64,000 nt of DNA from Roseicitreum antarcticum (GTDB lineage Bacteria; Pseudomonadota; Alphaproteobacteria; Rhodobacterales; Rhodobacteraceae), in assembly GCF_014681765.1 (NCBI RefSeq), contig NZ_CP061501.1, positions 1 to 64,000 of the forward strand. Reading direction: 5' to 3'. Made by a program: the position numbers and the translations under genes. Every line of letters starts with the position of its first letter. The first letter of the stretch is position 1. This document shows, one piece after another, positions 35,004-47,836 of this stretch. The notes below the pieces were generated by a model. It saw only the letters and a program-made list of their open reading frames with translations, searched no databases and was not told the origin of the DNA.

Positions 35004-35150
35004 TGTCGCGTTCTCCTTAAATCTGACACGCGGCGCGTTGGGTGACGTTTGTTGCCCTTAAATGTGATATTTGACTGCCAGCAGCTTGTTGTTTTCCTTG
35101 GTTCGCAGCACGATCCGGTCAACTGCAGCAAGTAGACCGGGTTCCTTCTC
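35004..35150 (+). repeat. Transposon end, copy A (TGTCGCG-type, multi-repeat)
   Basis: Starts TGTCGCGTTCTCCTTAAATC and carries a second internal repeat TTGCCCTTAAATGTGA at about 35051-35066. About 65 of the first 77 bases match copy B at 40964, without gaps, and weaker similarity continues to about 35150. It then abuts an IS110 fragment, so only the left end is left here. Multiple spaced copies of one motif at a TGT end are typical of IS21-like and Tn7-like transposons. Confidence 0.65.
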
Positions 35151-40580: not shown

Positions 40581-40963
40581 TCAATCGCGCACGACGTAGA
40601 CGGACTGCCGCCCGTGCCGCACGACGCGCGCGGCGTTCGGGCCGAGCAGATAGTCCTTCAACTCCGGTCGGTGCGACCCGATCACGATCAGGTCTGCGTC
40701 CAGTTTGTCGGCTGCGCGCAGTATCTCGTCATAGATTGAGCCGTGCAGGACATGCGGGCGCACGTTCACATCGTCGGGCACATGCGTGCCGACCCAGTCG
40801 CGCAGGGCGGTAGCATAGGCCAAAAGTGCGTCTTTCTCGTAATCCTTGCGGAAATAGCTGCCGACGAGGGGCATGCCGAAATCTGGCAGGACGCTGACGA
40901 CATGCAGCGTGGCCTCATGCAGGCGCACGAGGTCCAGTGCTGCGCGTAGCAGCGACGGCCAGC
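40581..40963 (-). pseudogene. Universal stress protein (UspA family), N-terminus lost to a transposon end
   Basis: The frame reads SWPSLLRAALDLVRLHEATL, then HVVSVLPDFGMPLVGSYFRK and ends with the ATP-binding loop region DADLIVIGSHRPELKDYLLG, NAARVVRHGRQSVYVVRD. UspA proteins start about 15 residues earlier with a beta strand ending in D. That piece is replaced by the transposon end at 40964. A GTG at 40928 could still give a 115-residue product, but it would lack the first strand. Confidence 0.8.
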
Positions 40964-41283
40964 TGTCGCGTTGCCCTTAAATCTGAGACGCGGCGCGTTC
41001 GGCTACATTTTTTGCCCTTAATAGTGAGATTCGACTGCCATCGGGCCTATGCTTCTTGCACGCCGTTGCGCGATGTGATCAACCGCAGCGAGAAAACGTT
41101 GCTCCTTCTCGAAGGTGCCTTCGCCATCTTTGTCCATCGATATTTACCGCACACGCCTGTGAACCCTGTCTCAGGTTTAAGGGCAAAAATATCGGAGTTA
41201 AAGGCAAAATCTCACATTTAAGGGCAAAGCACAGCCGTTGATTTCGTTGAATTTCTCATCTCACAATTAAGGGCTACGCGACA
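40964..41283. mobile_element. 320-bp end-only transposon relic, copy B
   Basis: The left end TGTCGCGTTGCCCTTAAATC (40964) and the right end, read on the minus strand from 41283 (TGTCGCGTAGCCCTTAATTG), are inverted repeats. Further copies of the motif TTGCCCTTAA lie inside: one more at the left (about 41012) and three more near the right end (about 41170-41224, minus orientation). There is no transposase. This is the end architecture of IS21-like or Tn7-like elements reduced to a MITE. Neighbouring 5-mers (CCAGC, TCTGG) are not a duplication. Confidence 0.75.
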
Positions 41284-41284
41284 T

Positions 41285-41971
41285 CTGGCGACGCTGGTGG
41301 GCGCCGAGGGTCCGCCAGGTACGGTTGGCCCCGAAGGCCCACAGGGTCCAGCCGGGGCGGACGGGGCTGATGGGGCACCCGGTGCCGATGGCATCAATGG
41401 TGCGGACGGGAGTGATGGAGCCGACGGTCTGTCCTTTGTCTGGCAGGGTCCGTGGGTCACCGCGACCGGTTATGCGCTGAACGATGTCGTCGAAAACGAT
41501 GGGTCGGTCTACATCTGCATCACCGTCCACACATCGGCCGCGTCAGACCAGCCGGGTGTTGGCGCAAGCTGGCTGACAAATTGGGACCTGTTCGCGTCGG
41601 GCGCCGACCTGTCCGCCCAGGGCACGCTTGGCTCCGGCCCTGTTGTCCTCTCGCGGCGCAGTATCAACGCGCAGGCCGCGTCGTATACGCTGGTGATCGC
41701 CGATGAAGGGGCGGCCATCCACATGACCAGCGCCTCGGCCGTCACGCTGACCGTGCCCGCCAACAGCGCGGTGGCCTTCCCGACCGGGGCCGAGATCGAG
41801 GTGGTTGCGCTGGGCGCGGGCGTGGTTTCAATCACCGCTGATACCGGCGTCTCGATCAATGGGGTCTCGGCTGGTTCCGTCGATATCGCAGCGCAGTGGC
41901 AGGGCGCGGTCCTGCGGAAATACGACACGGACGCCTGGCTTCTGATCGGTGCGGTGGGGAACGTCTTATGA
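41285..41971 (+). pseudogene. Collagen-like phage tail fibre protein, N-terminus missing
   Basis: About 228 codons beginning in frame at the transposon edge. A Gly-X-Y run (EGPPGTVGPEGPQGPAG, then GADGADGAPGADGINGADG) is followed by a carbohydrate-module-like FVWQGPWVTATGYALNDVVE and a beta-rich domain (AQAASYTLVIADEGAAIHMT) ending IGAVGNVL. GTG 41297 could start a shortened protein. Such fibres bind host surfaces. It overlaps the next tail gene by four bases. Confidence 0.78.
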
Positions 41972-42618
41972 GGTTGATGCTTCCTGCCGTCTGGAACGCG
42001 GCGCGATATCAGATGGATAATGCGGGCGGTGGGACTGGCGGCCCCTGGACTGACCCGTTCGACAATCCGTCCGGCACGGTCCTGTGGTCACGCTGGATCA
42101 ATGGGTCGACGGCGGGCACGGCAAAGGACAATTGCGCGCTCTGGTCCAACCGGGTCGGGTTCTCGGGCGCCACCAGCGCCTGCGAATGGCGCACCAACGC
42201 AGGCGCTGGCCGGGTCAATGTGGAACTGCTGAACTGGGAGGCGCTGACCGCTGGGCCGATGATCGTCCGCATGCGCTGCAAGGTGGAAACCCAGACCGTG
42301 CCAAAAGTCTGGCTGCTGCTGAACACGATCTTCGTCAACCCGCTCTGGGAACTCTGCGTCGACATCACCCCGGATGGAACCGCCCCGGCGGCCCGCATCG
42401 GCCATCACAGCACGCACTGGTCCGACGTCTGGGTCGAGGAACACCCGGCCTACCCCGGTTGGATGTTCATCAAGGCCCGACTGAACCTGACCGGCGCACC
42501 TGACGTTGATGGCTCCTTCACCGTGCACATGACCGACTCCAACGACGGTGATGAACTGTTTCCGCTCGACAATCTGACTGTGATCCGGGTGCAGGACCTC
42601 ACCATCGAACCCGTCTGA
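41968..42618 (+). CDS. Phage tail-associated protein, unknown fold
   Basis: A 216-residue protein (MRLMLPAVWNAARYQMDNAG), coupled by ATGA overlap to the collagen-like gene. It is tryptophan-rich and beta-strand-like (CALWSNRVGFSGATSACEWR, PMIVRMRCKVETQTVPKVWL), which suggests a lectin or carbohydrate-binding jelly roll at the tail tip. I do not recognise a named family. Confidence 0.7.
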   Translation: MRLMLPAVWNAARYQMDNAGGGTGGPWTDPFDNPSGTVLWSRWINGSTAGTAKDNCALWSNRVGFSGATSACEWRTNAGAGRVNVELLNWEALTAGPMIVRMRCKVETQTVPKVWLLLNTIFVNPLWELCVDITPDGTAPAARIGHHSTHWSDVWVEEHPAYPGWMFIKARLNLTGAPDVDGSFTVHMTDSNDGDELFPLDNLTVIRVQDLTIEPV

Positions 42619-42641
42619 CCTGACCACGCAAGGACCACCCC

Positions 42642-42932
42642 ATGACACCACCACGATCCGATGGCGACTTCGTGCGCATCCCCGACGCCGAATTCGAGGC
42701 CATGCTGGCGCGCGCCGCCGAAAAGGGCGCGAAACGCGCGCTCGCGGATGTCGGCCTCGATGGCAACGAAGCGGCGCTCGACATCCGCGATCTTCGCTCG
42801 CTGCTCATTTGCATCCGGGTCATCCGCCGCACCGCCATGCAGACCGCCGTCCGGATGATCACGACCGCGGCGATGCTGGCACTGCTGGCAGGCATCGCCA
42901 TCAAGCTGAAGATCTTTGGCGGCGGGCCGTAA
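42642..42932 (+). CDS. DUF6127 family membrane protein (holin-like position)
   Basis: A 96-residue protein. FEAMLARAAEKGAKRALADVGL and ALDIRDLRSLL are the DUF6127 pattern. One transmembrane segment, AVRMITTAAMLALLAGIAI, is followed by a short basic tail. It precedes the endolysin-like gene, the position where phages encode holins, but a holin role is only inferred. A terminator follows at once. Confidence 0.78.
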   Translation: MTPPRSDGDFVRIPDAEFEAMLARAAEKGAKRALADVGLDGNEAALDIRDLRSLLICIRVIRRTAMQTAVRMITTAAMLALLAGIAIKLKIFGGGP

Positions 42933-42967
42933 GCGCCGACCAGCACACCGCGAACGCCAACCCGCAC

Positions 42968-42990
42968 CCGCCCTCGAGGCGGCTTTTTTT
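42968..42990 (+). terminator. Intrinsic terminator before the endolysin-like gene
   Basis: CCGCC (42968-42972), loop CTCGA, GGCGG (42978-42982), then CTTTTTTT. The stem is short but GC-rich. Confidence 0.75.
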
Positions 42991-43006
42991 GTTCTCGGAG
43001 GACCCA

Positions 43007-43681
43007 ATGACAACAACTTTCCATCACCACTGGCGCGACGTGCCCAAAGCCACCTGGCGCTGGCGCAACTTTTCCCCGGCCGAGATCGCCTGCCGTGGCA
43101 CCGGCAAACTGCTGATCAACCCTGCCGCCCTCGACAAGCTGCAGGCCCTGCGCGACCGGCTCGGCAAGCCGCTGATCGTGCGCTCCGCCTATCGCAGTCC
43201 GGAGCACAACCGGGCGGTGGGCGGGGCGACGGCGTCGAAGCACATGAACGGCACGGCTTTCGACATTGCCATGGCGAACCACGATCCAGTGGCGTTCGAA
43301 GCTGCTGCACGCGCCATCGGCTTCCTCGGGTTTGGCTTCTACCCGCGTTCTGGCTTTATCCATGTCGATCTCGGACCGGCCCGGCAGTGGGGCGAGCGGT
43401 TCCCGGCACGCGCGGTACCCTTCGCGGCCGAAACGCCGCCCGCACGCGAAGTGCTGGCCGAAAGCCGCACCATGAAAGGCAGTGGCGCTGCTGGCGTGGC
43501 GACTATCGGCGCGGCCGGTGTCGAGGTGGCGCAAGAAATCCTGGCCGAAACCCAATCCGCCATCCTGCCGCTGGTGCCCTATCTCGATACCCTGCGCTGG
43601 GTGTTCATTGCTGTTGCGCTGATTGGCATCGCTATCGCCATTCACGCCCGGCTCGATGACTGGAAGCGGGGGCAGCGATGA
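43007..43681 (+). CDS. M15-family D,D-peptidase/endolysin with C-terminal membrane anchor
   Basis: A 224-residue protein. The peptidase M15 zinc motif is complete: SAYRSPEHNRAVGGATAS, SKHMNGTAFDIAM (His and Asp ligands) and the terminal FIHVDLG (third ligand). It cuts peptidoglycan cross-links at lysis. Residues about 195-212 form a transmembrane helix (VFIAVALIGIAIAIHA), unusual for a free endolysin and perhaps a signal-anchor-release type. GGAGG lies 8 bases upstream. The stop overlaps the next start (ATGA). Confidence 0.87.
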   Translation: MTTTFHHHWRDVPKATWRWRNFSPAEIACRGTGKLLINPAALDKLQALRDRLGKPLIVRSAYRSPEHNRAVGGATASKHMNGTAFDIAMANHDPVAFEAAARAIGFLGFGFYPRSGFIHVDLGPARQWGERFPARAVPFAAETPPAREVLAESRTMKGSGAAGVATIGAAGVEVAQEILAETQSAILPLVPYLDTLRWVFIAVALIGIAIAIHARLDDWKRGQR

Positions 43682-43932
43682 TCAGCTGGATTGCTGCGAT
43701 CCTCGCAAGTGGCCCGGCCGGCAAAGCGTTGAGCCTCTGGCTGGCTGTTGGCACCATCATCCTGTTTCTGCTCAACCTCCGCCGCGCTGGCGAACGCGCT
43801 GGGCGGCTAGCCGAGCGCTTTTCATCATCGGAGAAAACCCATGAAATCCAACGCCGGATGCTGGACGCCGCCAGCCGTCGCCCCGCTGATCGTGATGCTC
43901 TTGCTGAGCGGTTGCGCGATGGGCAGTTCTGA
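43678..43932 (+). CDS. Rz-like inner-membrane spanin candidate
   Basis: An 84-residue protein with one N-terminal transmembrane segment (LSLWLAVGTIILFLLNL) and a charged, coiled-coil-like periplasmic tail (ERAGRLAERFSSSEKTHEIQR). With the lipoprotein gene nested at its 3' end this is the Rz/Rz1 layout of phage spanins, which fuse inner and outer membranes at lysis. Identification rests on topology and context, not on sequence motifs. Confidence 0.65.
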   Translation: MISWIAAILASGPAGKALSLWLAVGTIILFLLNLRRAGERAGRLAERFSSSEKTHEIQRRMLDAASRRPADRDALAERLRDGQF

Positions 43933-44086
43933 CGCGCAGGCTATTTGTCCGCCCGTCGTGCAATACAGCACAGCCGATCAGATGCGGGCCGCCGCAGAGG
44001 TCGAAGCCTTGCCTGACGGTTCAGTGGTAGTGCAAATGCTCAGCGATTGTGCCGTCCTGCGGGATCAGGCGGGCACGTGCAGATAA
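43841..44086 (+). CDS. Rz1-like outer-membrane lipoprotein, nested in the Rz gene
   Basis: An 81-residue protein starting ATG 43841 inside the previous gene in another frame, overlapping it by 92 bases. A lipoprotein signal ends in LLLSGCAM, so the mature protein would begin at the Cys at about residue 25. The rest is short and has extra cysteines. Overlapping frames are diagnostic for Rz/Rz1 spanins. It closes the lysis cassette. Confidence 0.7.
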   Translation: MKSNAGCWTPPAVAPLIVMLLLSGCAMGSSDAQAICPPVVQYSTADQMRAAAEVEALPDGSVVVQMLSDCAVLRDQAGTCR

Positions 44087-45748: not shown

Positions 45749-46951
45749 TCATGCGGCGTCCTCCCATGGTGGCGCGCGGGACTTGGGTGTTTGTCCGCGT
45801 TTGAAGGTCTCTATGACGATCATGGCACCGCCGCACTTCGGGCAAGGCTGAGACTGGTCGCGCTCGTCAGTATCGACGGTCTGACCTTCATCGGCATTGT
45901 TATTGGCTTCCGCTTCAACTTCCAGCAACTTCCTGATCATCTTGATGCGTTCACGGCGAATGCCGTTTGCGAGGAAGCCTGTGTGGCGGATGCGATGGAA
46001 GCCGGAGGGCAAGACATGGGTCAGGAAGCGGCGGATGAACTCTGGCGTGCTCAGATGCATGATCCTCATCCGATCACCATGTTTGATACGGTAGTCTTTC
46101 CAGCGGAAAGCCACGGTGTCGGCATCGGCGCTGATCAGTCGATGATTTGAGATCGCCACGCGGTGCGTGTAACGGCTCAAGTATGCCAATACGGCCTCCG
46201 GTCCGCCGAAGGGTGGCTTGGCATAAACGACCCAGGCGGCTTTTCGCAGCGGGGCAAGGTGGGCCGCGAAGGTATCCGGGTCAGCCAACTTTGCCAGATC
46301 ACCGAAGAAGACCAGCTTGCCTGCCTTGTGCAACCGGATCAGACCTTCGAGGAACAAACGCCGAAACAGTCGCGACAGGACCTTCACCGGCAGGAAGAAC
46401 CCAGGTCTGCAGGCGGTCCAGCGGGCGCCGTCCGGCGATAGCCCACCGCCCGGCACAATGACATGGACATGGGGGTGATGGGTCATCGCAGACCCCCATG
46501 TGTGCAGCACGCTGGTCATGCCAATCTTTGCGCCAAGGTGTCTTGGATCAGCTGCGATGGTCAGCAGCGTCTGTGACGACGCCTTGAACAGCAGACCATA
46601 GACCGCTGCCTTGTTCTGATAGGCAATATCGGCGATCTGGGCTGGCAAGGTGAAGACCACATGGAAGTATTCGGCCGGTAACAGGTCTTCCATCCGCGCC
46701 TGCATCCAGCCCTGGGCTGCCGCGCCCTGACACTTTGGACAATGCCGGTTGCGACAGGAGTTATAGGCAACATGCTGATGATCGCATTTGGTACAGGCAG
46801 CGACATGCCCGCCAAGCGCTGCGGTCCGGCAAGCCTCGATAGCAGACATCACCTTCAACTGCGGCAGGTTAAGGTGTCCGGCGTGGTCCCGGCGATAGGC
46901 AGCACCATGGGCGCGGAAGATATCCGCGACCTCCAGTTTGGGGCGGGGCAT
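45749..46951 (-). CDS. IS91-family HUH transposase
   Basis: A 400-residue protein. N-terminal zinc-binding region: HVAACTKCDHQHVAYNSCRN, RHCPKCQG. The HUH motif is in MTHHPHVHVIVPGGG, and the catalytic tyrosine region is AVLAYLSRYTHRVAISNHRL. A second zinc knuckle (QPCPKCGGAMIVIE) is near the end. It nicks one strand and transposes by rolling circle, often carrying flanking genes. It seems complete. Confidence 0.92.
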   Translation of the reverse strand: MPRPKLEVADIFRAHGAAYRRDHAGHLNLPQLKVMSAIEACRTAALGGHVAACTKCDHQHVAYNSCRNRHCPKCQGAAAQGWMQARMEDLLPAEYFHVVFTLPAQIADIAYQNKAAVYGLLFKASSQTLLTIAADPRHLGAKIGMTSVLHTWGSAMTHHPHVHVIVPGGGLSPDGARWTACRPGFFLPVKVLSRLFRRLFLEGLIRLHKAGKLVFFGDLAKLADPDTFAAHLAPLRKAAWVVYAKPPFGGPEAVLAYLSRYTHRVAISNHRLISADADTVAFRWKDYRIKHGDRMRIMHLSTPEFIRRFLTHVLPSGFHRIRHTGFLANGIRRERIKMIRKLLEVEAEANNNADEGQTVDTDERDQSQPCPKCGGAMIVIETFKRGQTPKSRAPPWEDAA

Positions 46952-46963
46952 CGGAGCCGAGGT

Positions 46964-47836
46964 TTATCCGGCCCCAGCTTCCCTGCGCACCAGCAGATCA
47001 AGCGGGCTGGTGACGTCGCGGATCGTCTTGGTGGCCACCTGTGTGTAGATCGTCGTCGTTTCCAACTTGGCGTGCCCCAGCAGAACCTGAATGACCCGAA
47101 TGTCGGTTCCGCCCTCAAGCAGATGTGTGGCAAAGCTGTGCCGGAGCGTGTGAGGTGACACAGCCTTCTTGATCTCGGCAAAGTCGCAGGCTACCCCGAA
47201 AGCCCGATTGAACTGCCGCGTCGAGATCGGGTCGATGCGATTGCGACCCGGGAACATCCAGCCCCCTGGACGCGCTTCGCGGTAATAGTCGCGCAGAAGA
47301 TCCAACAGGCTTGGTGACAACATCACATGGCGGTCCTTGCCGCCCTTGCCCTGGTCCACCCGGATCAACATGCGGTCGCTGTCGATATCGCCAACCTTCA
47401 AATGCGTGACTTCACTCGCCCGCAACCCGCCACCATAGGCCACGCTGAACGCTGCCCGATACCTCAGCCCTGGTCCGGGCGCGGCTTCAAGAATACGCGC
47501 GACCTCTTCGGCGCTCAGCACCACCGGGATCTTCTTGGCGGCACGCTGATATCGCATATGCCGCTTCATCTCGGGGCGCGGACACGTCGTTGCAAAGAAG
47601 AAACTCAACACTGTCAGCCGGTTGTTGAAGGTCGGCGCACCAACTCCGCGTTCCTTCATATCCAGTTGAAACGCCCGCAATTCTTCTGGCGTGGCGCTAT
47701 CCGGCGCGTGCCCCAAGAAGAGGGTGAAATCGCGCATCCCTCGCAAATACATCGTCTGCGTCTTCGACTGCAGCCCTTTGATCCGCATGTCTTCGAGAAA
47801 CCGCTGGCGCAGCGCCGGTACATACTGGTCTGACAT
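46964..47836 (-). CDS. Tyrosine recombinase of the IS91-type unit
   Basis: A 290-residue XerC/D-like recombinase. N-terminal SAM-like domain with MRIKGLQSKTQTMYLRGMRD; catalytic Arg in AYGGGLRASEVTHL; the HxxR box in SPHTLRHSFATHLLEG; the distal His in LLGHAKLETT and Tyr in TIYTQV. It lies upstream of, and probably co-transcribed with, the HUH transposase. Its role may be to resolve circular intermediates. Confidence 0.92.
   Translation of the reverse strand: MSDQYVPALRQRFLEDMRIKGLQSKTQTMYLRGMRDFTLFLGHAPDSATPEELRAFQLDMKERGVGAPTFNNRLTVLSFFFATTCPRPEMKRHMRYQRAAKKIPVVLSAEEVARILEAAPGPGLRYRAAFSVAYGGGLRASEVTHLKVGDIDSDRMLIRVDQGKGGKDRHVMLSPSLLDLLRDYYREARPGGWMFPGRNRIDPISTRQFNRAFGVACDFAEIKKAVSPHTLRHSFATHLLEGGTDIRVIQVLLGHAKLETTTIYTQVATKTIRDVTSPLDLLVRREAGAG

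Follow-up and report, generated by a model that had tools for sequence, protein, structure and literature searches.

A gene-less TniABQ-type transposon derivative between uspA and a phage tail-fibre frame in Roseicitreum antarcticum

Introduction

How does a piece of DNA that consists of two transposon ends and no gene come to join the interior of a uspA gene to a phage tail-fibre frame? The question is raised by a 320-bp element in the window analysed here, a stretch of 64,000 nucleotides from Roseicitreum antarcticum (contig NZ_CP061501.1, positions 1 to 64,000; assembly GCF_014681765.1). The host contig comprises 103,727 bases and carries a RepC gene, so that it looks like a RepABC-type plasmid. 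An initial annotation, made from the sequence alone, had taken the element for either a miniature inverted-repeat element (MITE) or the scar of a larger transposon, had compared its ends with those of IS21 or Tn7, and had read it as the mark of a deletion or rearrangement.

Results

Ends, repeats and edges of the element

The tips TGTCGCG on the left and CGCGACA on the right set the edges of the element exactly at 40964-41283 of the window; its first letters are TGTCGCGTTGCCCTTAAATCTGAGA and its last letters TCTCACAATTAAGGGCTACGCGACA. The inverted arms are 31 nt long and 87% complementary, six flanking bases per side being counted in. An end repeat, TCTCANNNTTAAGGGCAA, is present in two left copies in one orientation and four right copies in the other, one of them degenerate. 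With up to two mismatches allowed, TCTCANNNTTAAGGGCAA was found at six sites in the window (five of them inside the element, the other in a relic at 35052), compared to 0.11 in shuffled sequences, and the degenerate copy at 41189-41210 is not among these six. When a looser form of the pattern was searched with one mismatch throughout the R. antarcticum genome, six of the eight sites fell in the element and the relic; the reversed control pattern gave three. The features are collected in Table 1.

No intact gene lies inside the element, which retains a 3' remnant of tniQ besides the initial 19 nt of tniA, and no target duplication is present, CCAGC standing on one side and TCTGG on the other. 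The initial annotation had described TGTCGCG ends, two left and four right repeats, an interior free of genes and the absence of a target duplication, and our analysis agrees with it on each of these points. A simple scan detected no sigma-70-like promoter inside the element or next to it, and no match to it was found among phage records. In the genome itself (4.25 Mb, five contigs), the 320 bases matched only themselves and positions 35004-35080, at 84% identity, and there is no second complete copy.

The relic at 35004-35150 is a second left end of this transposon type, diverged (84% over 77 bp) and without a remaining right end. Its partner fragment reads like an IS110-type transposase.

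Table 1. Features at and around the 320-bp element, in window coordinates.
Feature	Coordinates	Strand	Basis
Older relic, second left end, joined to IS110-like fragment	35004..35150	+	
uspA lacking about 15 N-terminal residues	40581..40964	-	Comparison with a relative
Left flank CCAGC, NCNGN-type	40959..40963	+	Flank reading
Gutted TniABQ-type transposon of 320 bp, whole	40964..41283	.	Ends and lengths
Left (tniQ-side) end, nt 1-155	40964..41118	.	77-85% identity to left ends of full elements
End repeat, left copy 1	40971..40988	-	Repeat pattern
End repeat, left copy 2	41012..41029	-	Repeat pattern
tniQ 3' scrap	41018..41118	-	Position transferred from annotated gene in locus L013
Right (tniA-side) end, nt 156-320	41119..41283	.	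91.5-93.3% identity to right ends of full elements
tniA initial 19 nt, start codon 41135-41137	41119..41137	-	Position transferred from L013
End repeat, right copy 1	41169..41186	+	Repeat pattern
End repeat, right copy 2, degenerate (68%)	41189..41210	+	Repeat comparison
End repeat, right copy 3	41210..41227	+	Repeat pattern
End repeat, right copy 4, terminal	41259..41276	+	Repeat pattern
Right flank TCTGG, NCNGN-type, unlike the left flank	41284..41288	+	Flank reading
Collagen-like phage tail-fibre frame, open to the element	41285..41971	+	Pfam Collagen

The parent transposon

A search of PLSDB returned 92 plasmid records matching the 320-bp element, mostly from the Roseobacter group and other Rhodobacterales. 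Where the matching element is full, the right half of the query falls on the beginning of a Mu-type transposase gene and its left half on the terminal part of a TniQ gene. BLAST against the elements in loci L013-L017 aligned nt 1-155 with their left ends at 77-85% identity and nt 156-320 with their right ends at 91.5-93.3%. Full elements measure 3,501-3,506 bp, except for two that are longer and contain IS21 genes. Since the halves map to the two ends of full elements, the window element equals a full transposon less about 3.19 kb, and the joint of this internal deletion falls at 41118/41119.

In full elements tniA, tniB and tniQ are annotated in this order (the TniQ gene in L015 and the transposase gene in L017 are not so labelled), and Pfam recognised rve and Mu-transpos_C, TniB and TniQ, respectively, in the three proteins of L013. 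Identity to the proteins of Tn402 of R751 is 39.7% over 506 aa for TniA, 36% over 260 aa for TniB and 29% over 125 aa for TniQ. No resolvase gene was seen in the annotated full elements, where tniA, tniB and tniQ are the only genes annotated in about 3.5 kb, and a search of the R. antarcticum genome for a TniA gene, run without a positive control, found none. Judged by these sequence comparisons, the 320-bp element is an internally deleted TniABQ transposon with both ends intact, distantly related to Tn402.

An origin of the ends from an IS21- or Tn7-family element, as initially suggested, would fit the presence of several short end repeats and the protein comparisons, in which the nearest solved structures for the full-element TniA are TnsB proteins and models of IS481, IS630, IS3 and IS21 match below the cut-off. 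However, full elements with these ends carry neither IstA/IstB nor a TnsABCDE set. Because the gene content of the full-length relatives is TniA, TniB and TniQ, with TniA a distant relative of TnsB, we rejected this identity as hardly conceivable.

Two further occurrences of these ends were observed. A metagenomic viral contig, IMGVR_UViG_3300041584_000160 (L131 11937-11965), has a right end and a long frame where tniA would be. Sulfitobacter pontiacus pDSM110277_d has an extra 148-bp left end directly beside, and in tandem with, the left end of a full element (L014 10517-10664).

Other short forms

At least 30 of 394 genomes of the family match the element, a lower bound obtained with at most two candidates scored per genome, and a full-length short form was found in four of them, R. 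antarcticum included. A 347-bp form exists as five mutually identical copies in four genomes, namely three of the family and the Sagittula plasmid p6; its hosts include Primorskyibacter aestuariivivens OITF-36 (two copies) and Thalassococcus halodurans DSM 26915 (joint-specific pattern). One of the 347-bp copies is separated from a recombinase gene by 110 bp. A 239-bp form is present as two identical copies on Marinibacterium anthonyi pLA6_006. The 320-bp form was found once, in the window, and its exact joint was found in no stretch of the GTDB contigs, a set from which the R. antarcticum genome may itself be absent. The internal joints of the three forms are all different, which argues that gutting occurred more than once.

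The 320-bp element has the features of a MITE, being short, gene-less and bounded by inverted termini, and its parent is identified. The initial choice between a MITE and the scar of a larger transposon is thereby settled as an internal-deletion derivative, whose near relatives are the multicopy miniatures of 347 and 239 bp. No report of tni-derived miniature elements in the Roseobacter group came up in the literature listings searched, although one may exist. An apparent further short form of about 240 bp was noticed at L056 2414-2650, in a genome with a 347-bp copy.

Genes on either side

On the left, the uspA frame of the window enters exactly at the element edge with SW, the residues that follow MAKTILLPVDLADEK in a relative (about codon 15), in accord with the claim of the initial annotation that UspA had lost its first residues. 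A TRAP-transporter permease precedes uspA in all three relatives inspected (in two of them it was recognised by eye). No such permease lies beside uspA in the window; the best match in the R. antarcticum genome is 43% identical and no close one was found.

On the right, relatives of the fibre share just the 3' half or short stretches of the window frame, and an intact fibre with a like collagen region was not found. A collagen-like frame open to the element is there, and it may have lost its start, as the initial annotation had it, but the relatives share too little of the frame to prove such a loss or to give its extent. Six other genomes have a fibre relative. In four of these a place matching uspA was listed, each time on a contig different from that of the fibre match, and for the other two no such place was listed, so that the adjacent and intact uspA and fibre genes which the initial annotation had proposed to look for were encountered in none of the six.

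The fibre frame belongs to what looks like a prophage remnant at 41284-44086, which also encodes a small DUF6127 protein, has an endolysin-like gene of the peptidase M15 type and contains more small frames; nothing else recognisable as a phage gene adjoins it. Besides the window itself, the 394 family genomes gave only short, chance-like matches to this prophage-side DNA.

Flanking pentamers and the origin of the junction

The pentamer adjacent to the ends fitted NCNGN in 10 of 27 unique left flanks and 16 of 28 unique right flanks (17 and 12, respectively, did not fit), compared to 8.6% of neighbouring pentamers; the window flanks were excluded from these sets, and the motif was first noticed in part of the same data. 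In loci outside the discovery set, 13 of 24 flanks fitted (27 typed flanks less three already used). The window flanks, CCAGC and TCTGG, differ from each other and both fit, for which the chance is about 0.7%. Such a pair of differing NCNGN flanks is what a replicative deletion should leave, each flank then carrying half of a separate duplication, that of the first insertion and that of the new target. Had the DNA broken at random next to the element, one flank would probably not fit.

We favour, with a probability of roughly 0.7, the reading that the 320-bp element is a non-autonomous, resolvase-less TniABQ derivative (a miniature inverted-repeat element) and the product of a replicative intramolecular deletion. 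A TniABQ set acting in trans, which is not found in the genome now, would have linked the two ends to a second target within the same molecule. Without resolution, such an event would delete whatever lies between the original insertion and the second target, here the uspA 5' end, the usual upstream TRAP-transporter gene and the DNA preceding the fibre frame, and a single copy would be left, bordered by CCAGC and TCTGG as halves of two different duplications. Replicative deletion of neighbouring plasmid DNA would explain an element that joins two broken genes, and it is supported by the uspA cut exactly at the edge and by the usual TRAP permease not adjoining. No pre-deletion relative and no partner copy or other half of the rearrangement was found. 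We infer a deletion at this junction; of the initial statement that the element marks a deletion or rearrangement, the absence of a duplication upholds the rearrangement, and does not single out a deletion among other replicative or recombinational events.

Alternatively, a full transposon could have inserted simply and been gutted in place later, with an unrelated deletion or truncation taking one flank. This would agree with internal joints that vary from one short form to another and with a 320-bp form not found elsewhere, but it leaves to coincidence that neither end lacks a single base and that both flanks are of the NCNGN type, and we regard it as quite improbable.

Split duplications and empty sites

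Both flanks of 31 elements were compared, 23 with transposon genes and eight short, the window copy counted. Only one of the 31 (W07b) has a 5-bp duplication of its own. In 3 of 36 ordered pairs on the same record, a 5-bp duplication was divided between two copies; permutation of the right flanks gave a mean of 0.51 (P about 0.01), and pairs from different records gave 5 of 894. The split duplications are CCTGG on S. pontiacus pDSM110277_d, TCAGG on Salipiger abyssi pPABY3 and ACGGC in the 239-bp pair on M. anthonyi pLA6_006. On pDSM110277_d, two copies in the same orientation enclose 13.7 kb and are placed between repC and the next gene, an arrangement that has the shape of an unresolved cointegrate or composite transposon. 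The two 239-bp copies on pLA6_006 are inverted relative to each other, which has the shape of a replicative inversion by a gene-less copy.

For the empty-site test, the outer flanks of each pair were joined minus one duplication and searched against plasmids. The rejoined targets of all three split pairs were found whole: an ISRhba5 transposase gene (IS5-type; 100% over 200 bp), DNA beside repC (99%, Dinoroseobacter) and a conjugation coupling-protein gene (98%). A 6-bp split match on pDY25-B gave no empty site, as none of 77 matching records covered 80% of the query, and this pair was left uncounted. Taken together, the split duplications and the whole rejoined targets argue that these elements fuse and invert DNA via replicative transposition.

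Several copies share one flank and differ at the other. The 347-bp copies L018 and L020 have the same left 1,400 bp with one mismatch and different right flanks, and one-sided sharing was also found at the left for W11a/W11b and W13b/W09c and at the right for W13a/W07a. Such sharing is in line with homologous recombination, and the window junction could have arisen in this way if two copies of the element, one of them for example on a since-lost plasmid, had exchanged flanks, with no replicative deletion. Recombination between two normal insertions also leaves two good NCNGN halves and is therefore the main rival to replicative deletion. We nevertheless hold it unlikely, as 320 bp is a short track for homologous recombination and the R. 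antarcticum genome has only the diverged left-end relic and no second complete copy.

Two full elements in opposite orientation were observed on Sulfitobacter sp. THAF37 pTHAF37_a (L090, L091), with an identical 190-bp left flank and different right flanks.

Discussion

Comparison with known systems

The closest known counterparts are Tn402/Tn5053 elements (tniABQR). Tn402 of R751 has homologues of TniA, TniB and TniQ in the same order and TGTC termini, and, by eye, several short repeats per end in the same 2 + 4 arrangement. The 5-bp duplications of this family recur in the relatives described here (one own and three split), with none at the window copy, and a replicative mechanism, described for the family in PMC7765201, is common to both. 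In contrast, the proteins are merely 29-40% identical, TniQ has 263 aa against 405 aa in Tn402, the TniR resolvase gene is missing from the full relatives, and the window copy has no gene at all. As to the insertion into resolvase sites that is typical of the family, the targets resolved here (the IS5-type transposase gene, the repC-side DNA and the coupling-protein gene) do not appear to be such sites, and one 347-bp copy has a recombinase gene nearby. Since the genes, ends and duplications of the family are found in the full relatives and the resolvase is not, we consider the window element a gutted relative rather than a standard member.

According to PMC7765201, Tn5053-type elements form replicative cointegrates that TniR resolves and that are long-lived where resolution fails, and some Tn502/Tn512 insertions lack repeats, possibly deleted by later transposon activity. 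The defective Tn6606-type elements treated there are also tni-less, keep both ends and are taken to depend for their movement on tni functions supplied in trans, but they are large mosaics near resolvase sites, whereas the window element consists of ends alone. In PMC4133298, the Tn3-derived TIMEs are described as gene-less derivatives of replicative transposons, moved in trans and making 5-bp duplications as here, with pairs that mobilise the intervening DNA and shuffle plasmid modules; they belong to another transposase family, and their ends are unrelated to those of our element. A 439-bp MITE beside Tn402-like integrons in Acinetobacter is likewise gene-less, of similar size and flanked by 5-bp duplications, and its pairs mobilise DNA; its ends match no known transposon according to PMC3934969, unlike the element here, for which a parent is identified.

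Implications

The comparison points to replicative rearrangements made by copies of a tni-type transposon that have no genes of their own, and it offers an explanation for an end-only junction of two genes. The pattern of fusion or inversion rather than simple insertion in the Roseobacter-group plasmid pool rests on three verified pairs. Tentatively, and at somewhat less than even odds, resolvase-less TniABQ transposons and their gutted miniatures may form a module-shuffling system of Roseobacter-group RepABC plasmids that marks module borders and rarely makes simple insertions. In such a system the products could not be resolved, so that most jumps would leave a fusion, an inversion or a deletion. 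The footprint is readable, comprising TGTCGCG ends, NCNGN flanks and 5-bp duplications split between copies, and can be used to trace fusion, inversion and DNA loss in these plasmids.

An IS91-type transposase and a tyrosine integrase were also noted at 45749-47836 of the window, about 4.5 kb from the 320-bp element. On Sagittula p6, the 347-bp copy has a pair annotated as site-specific integrase and IS91 family transposase (L012 1-2010) at a distance of about 3 kb.
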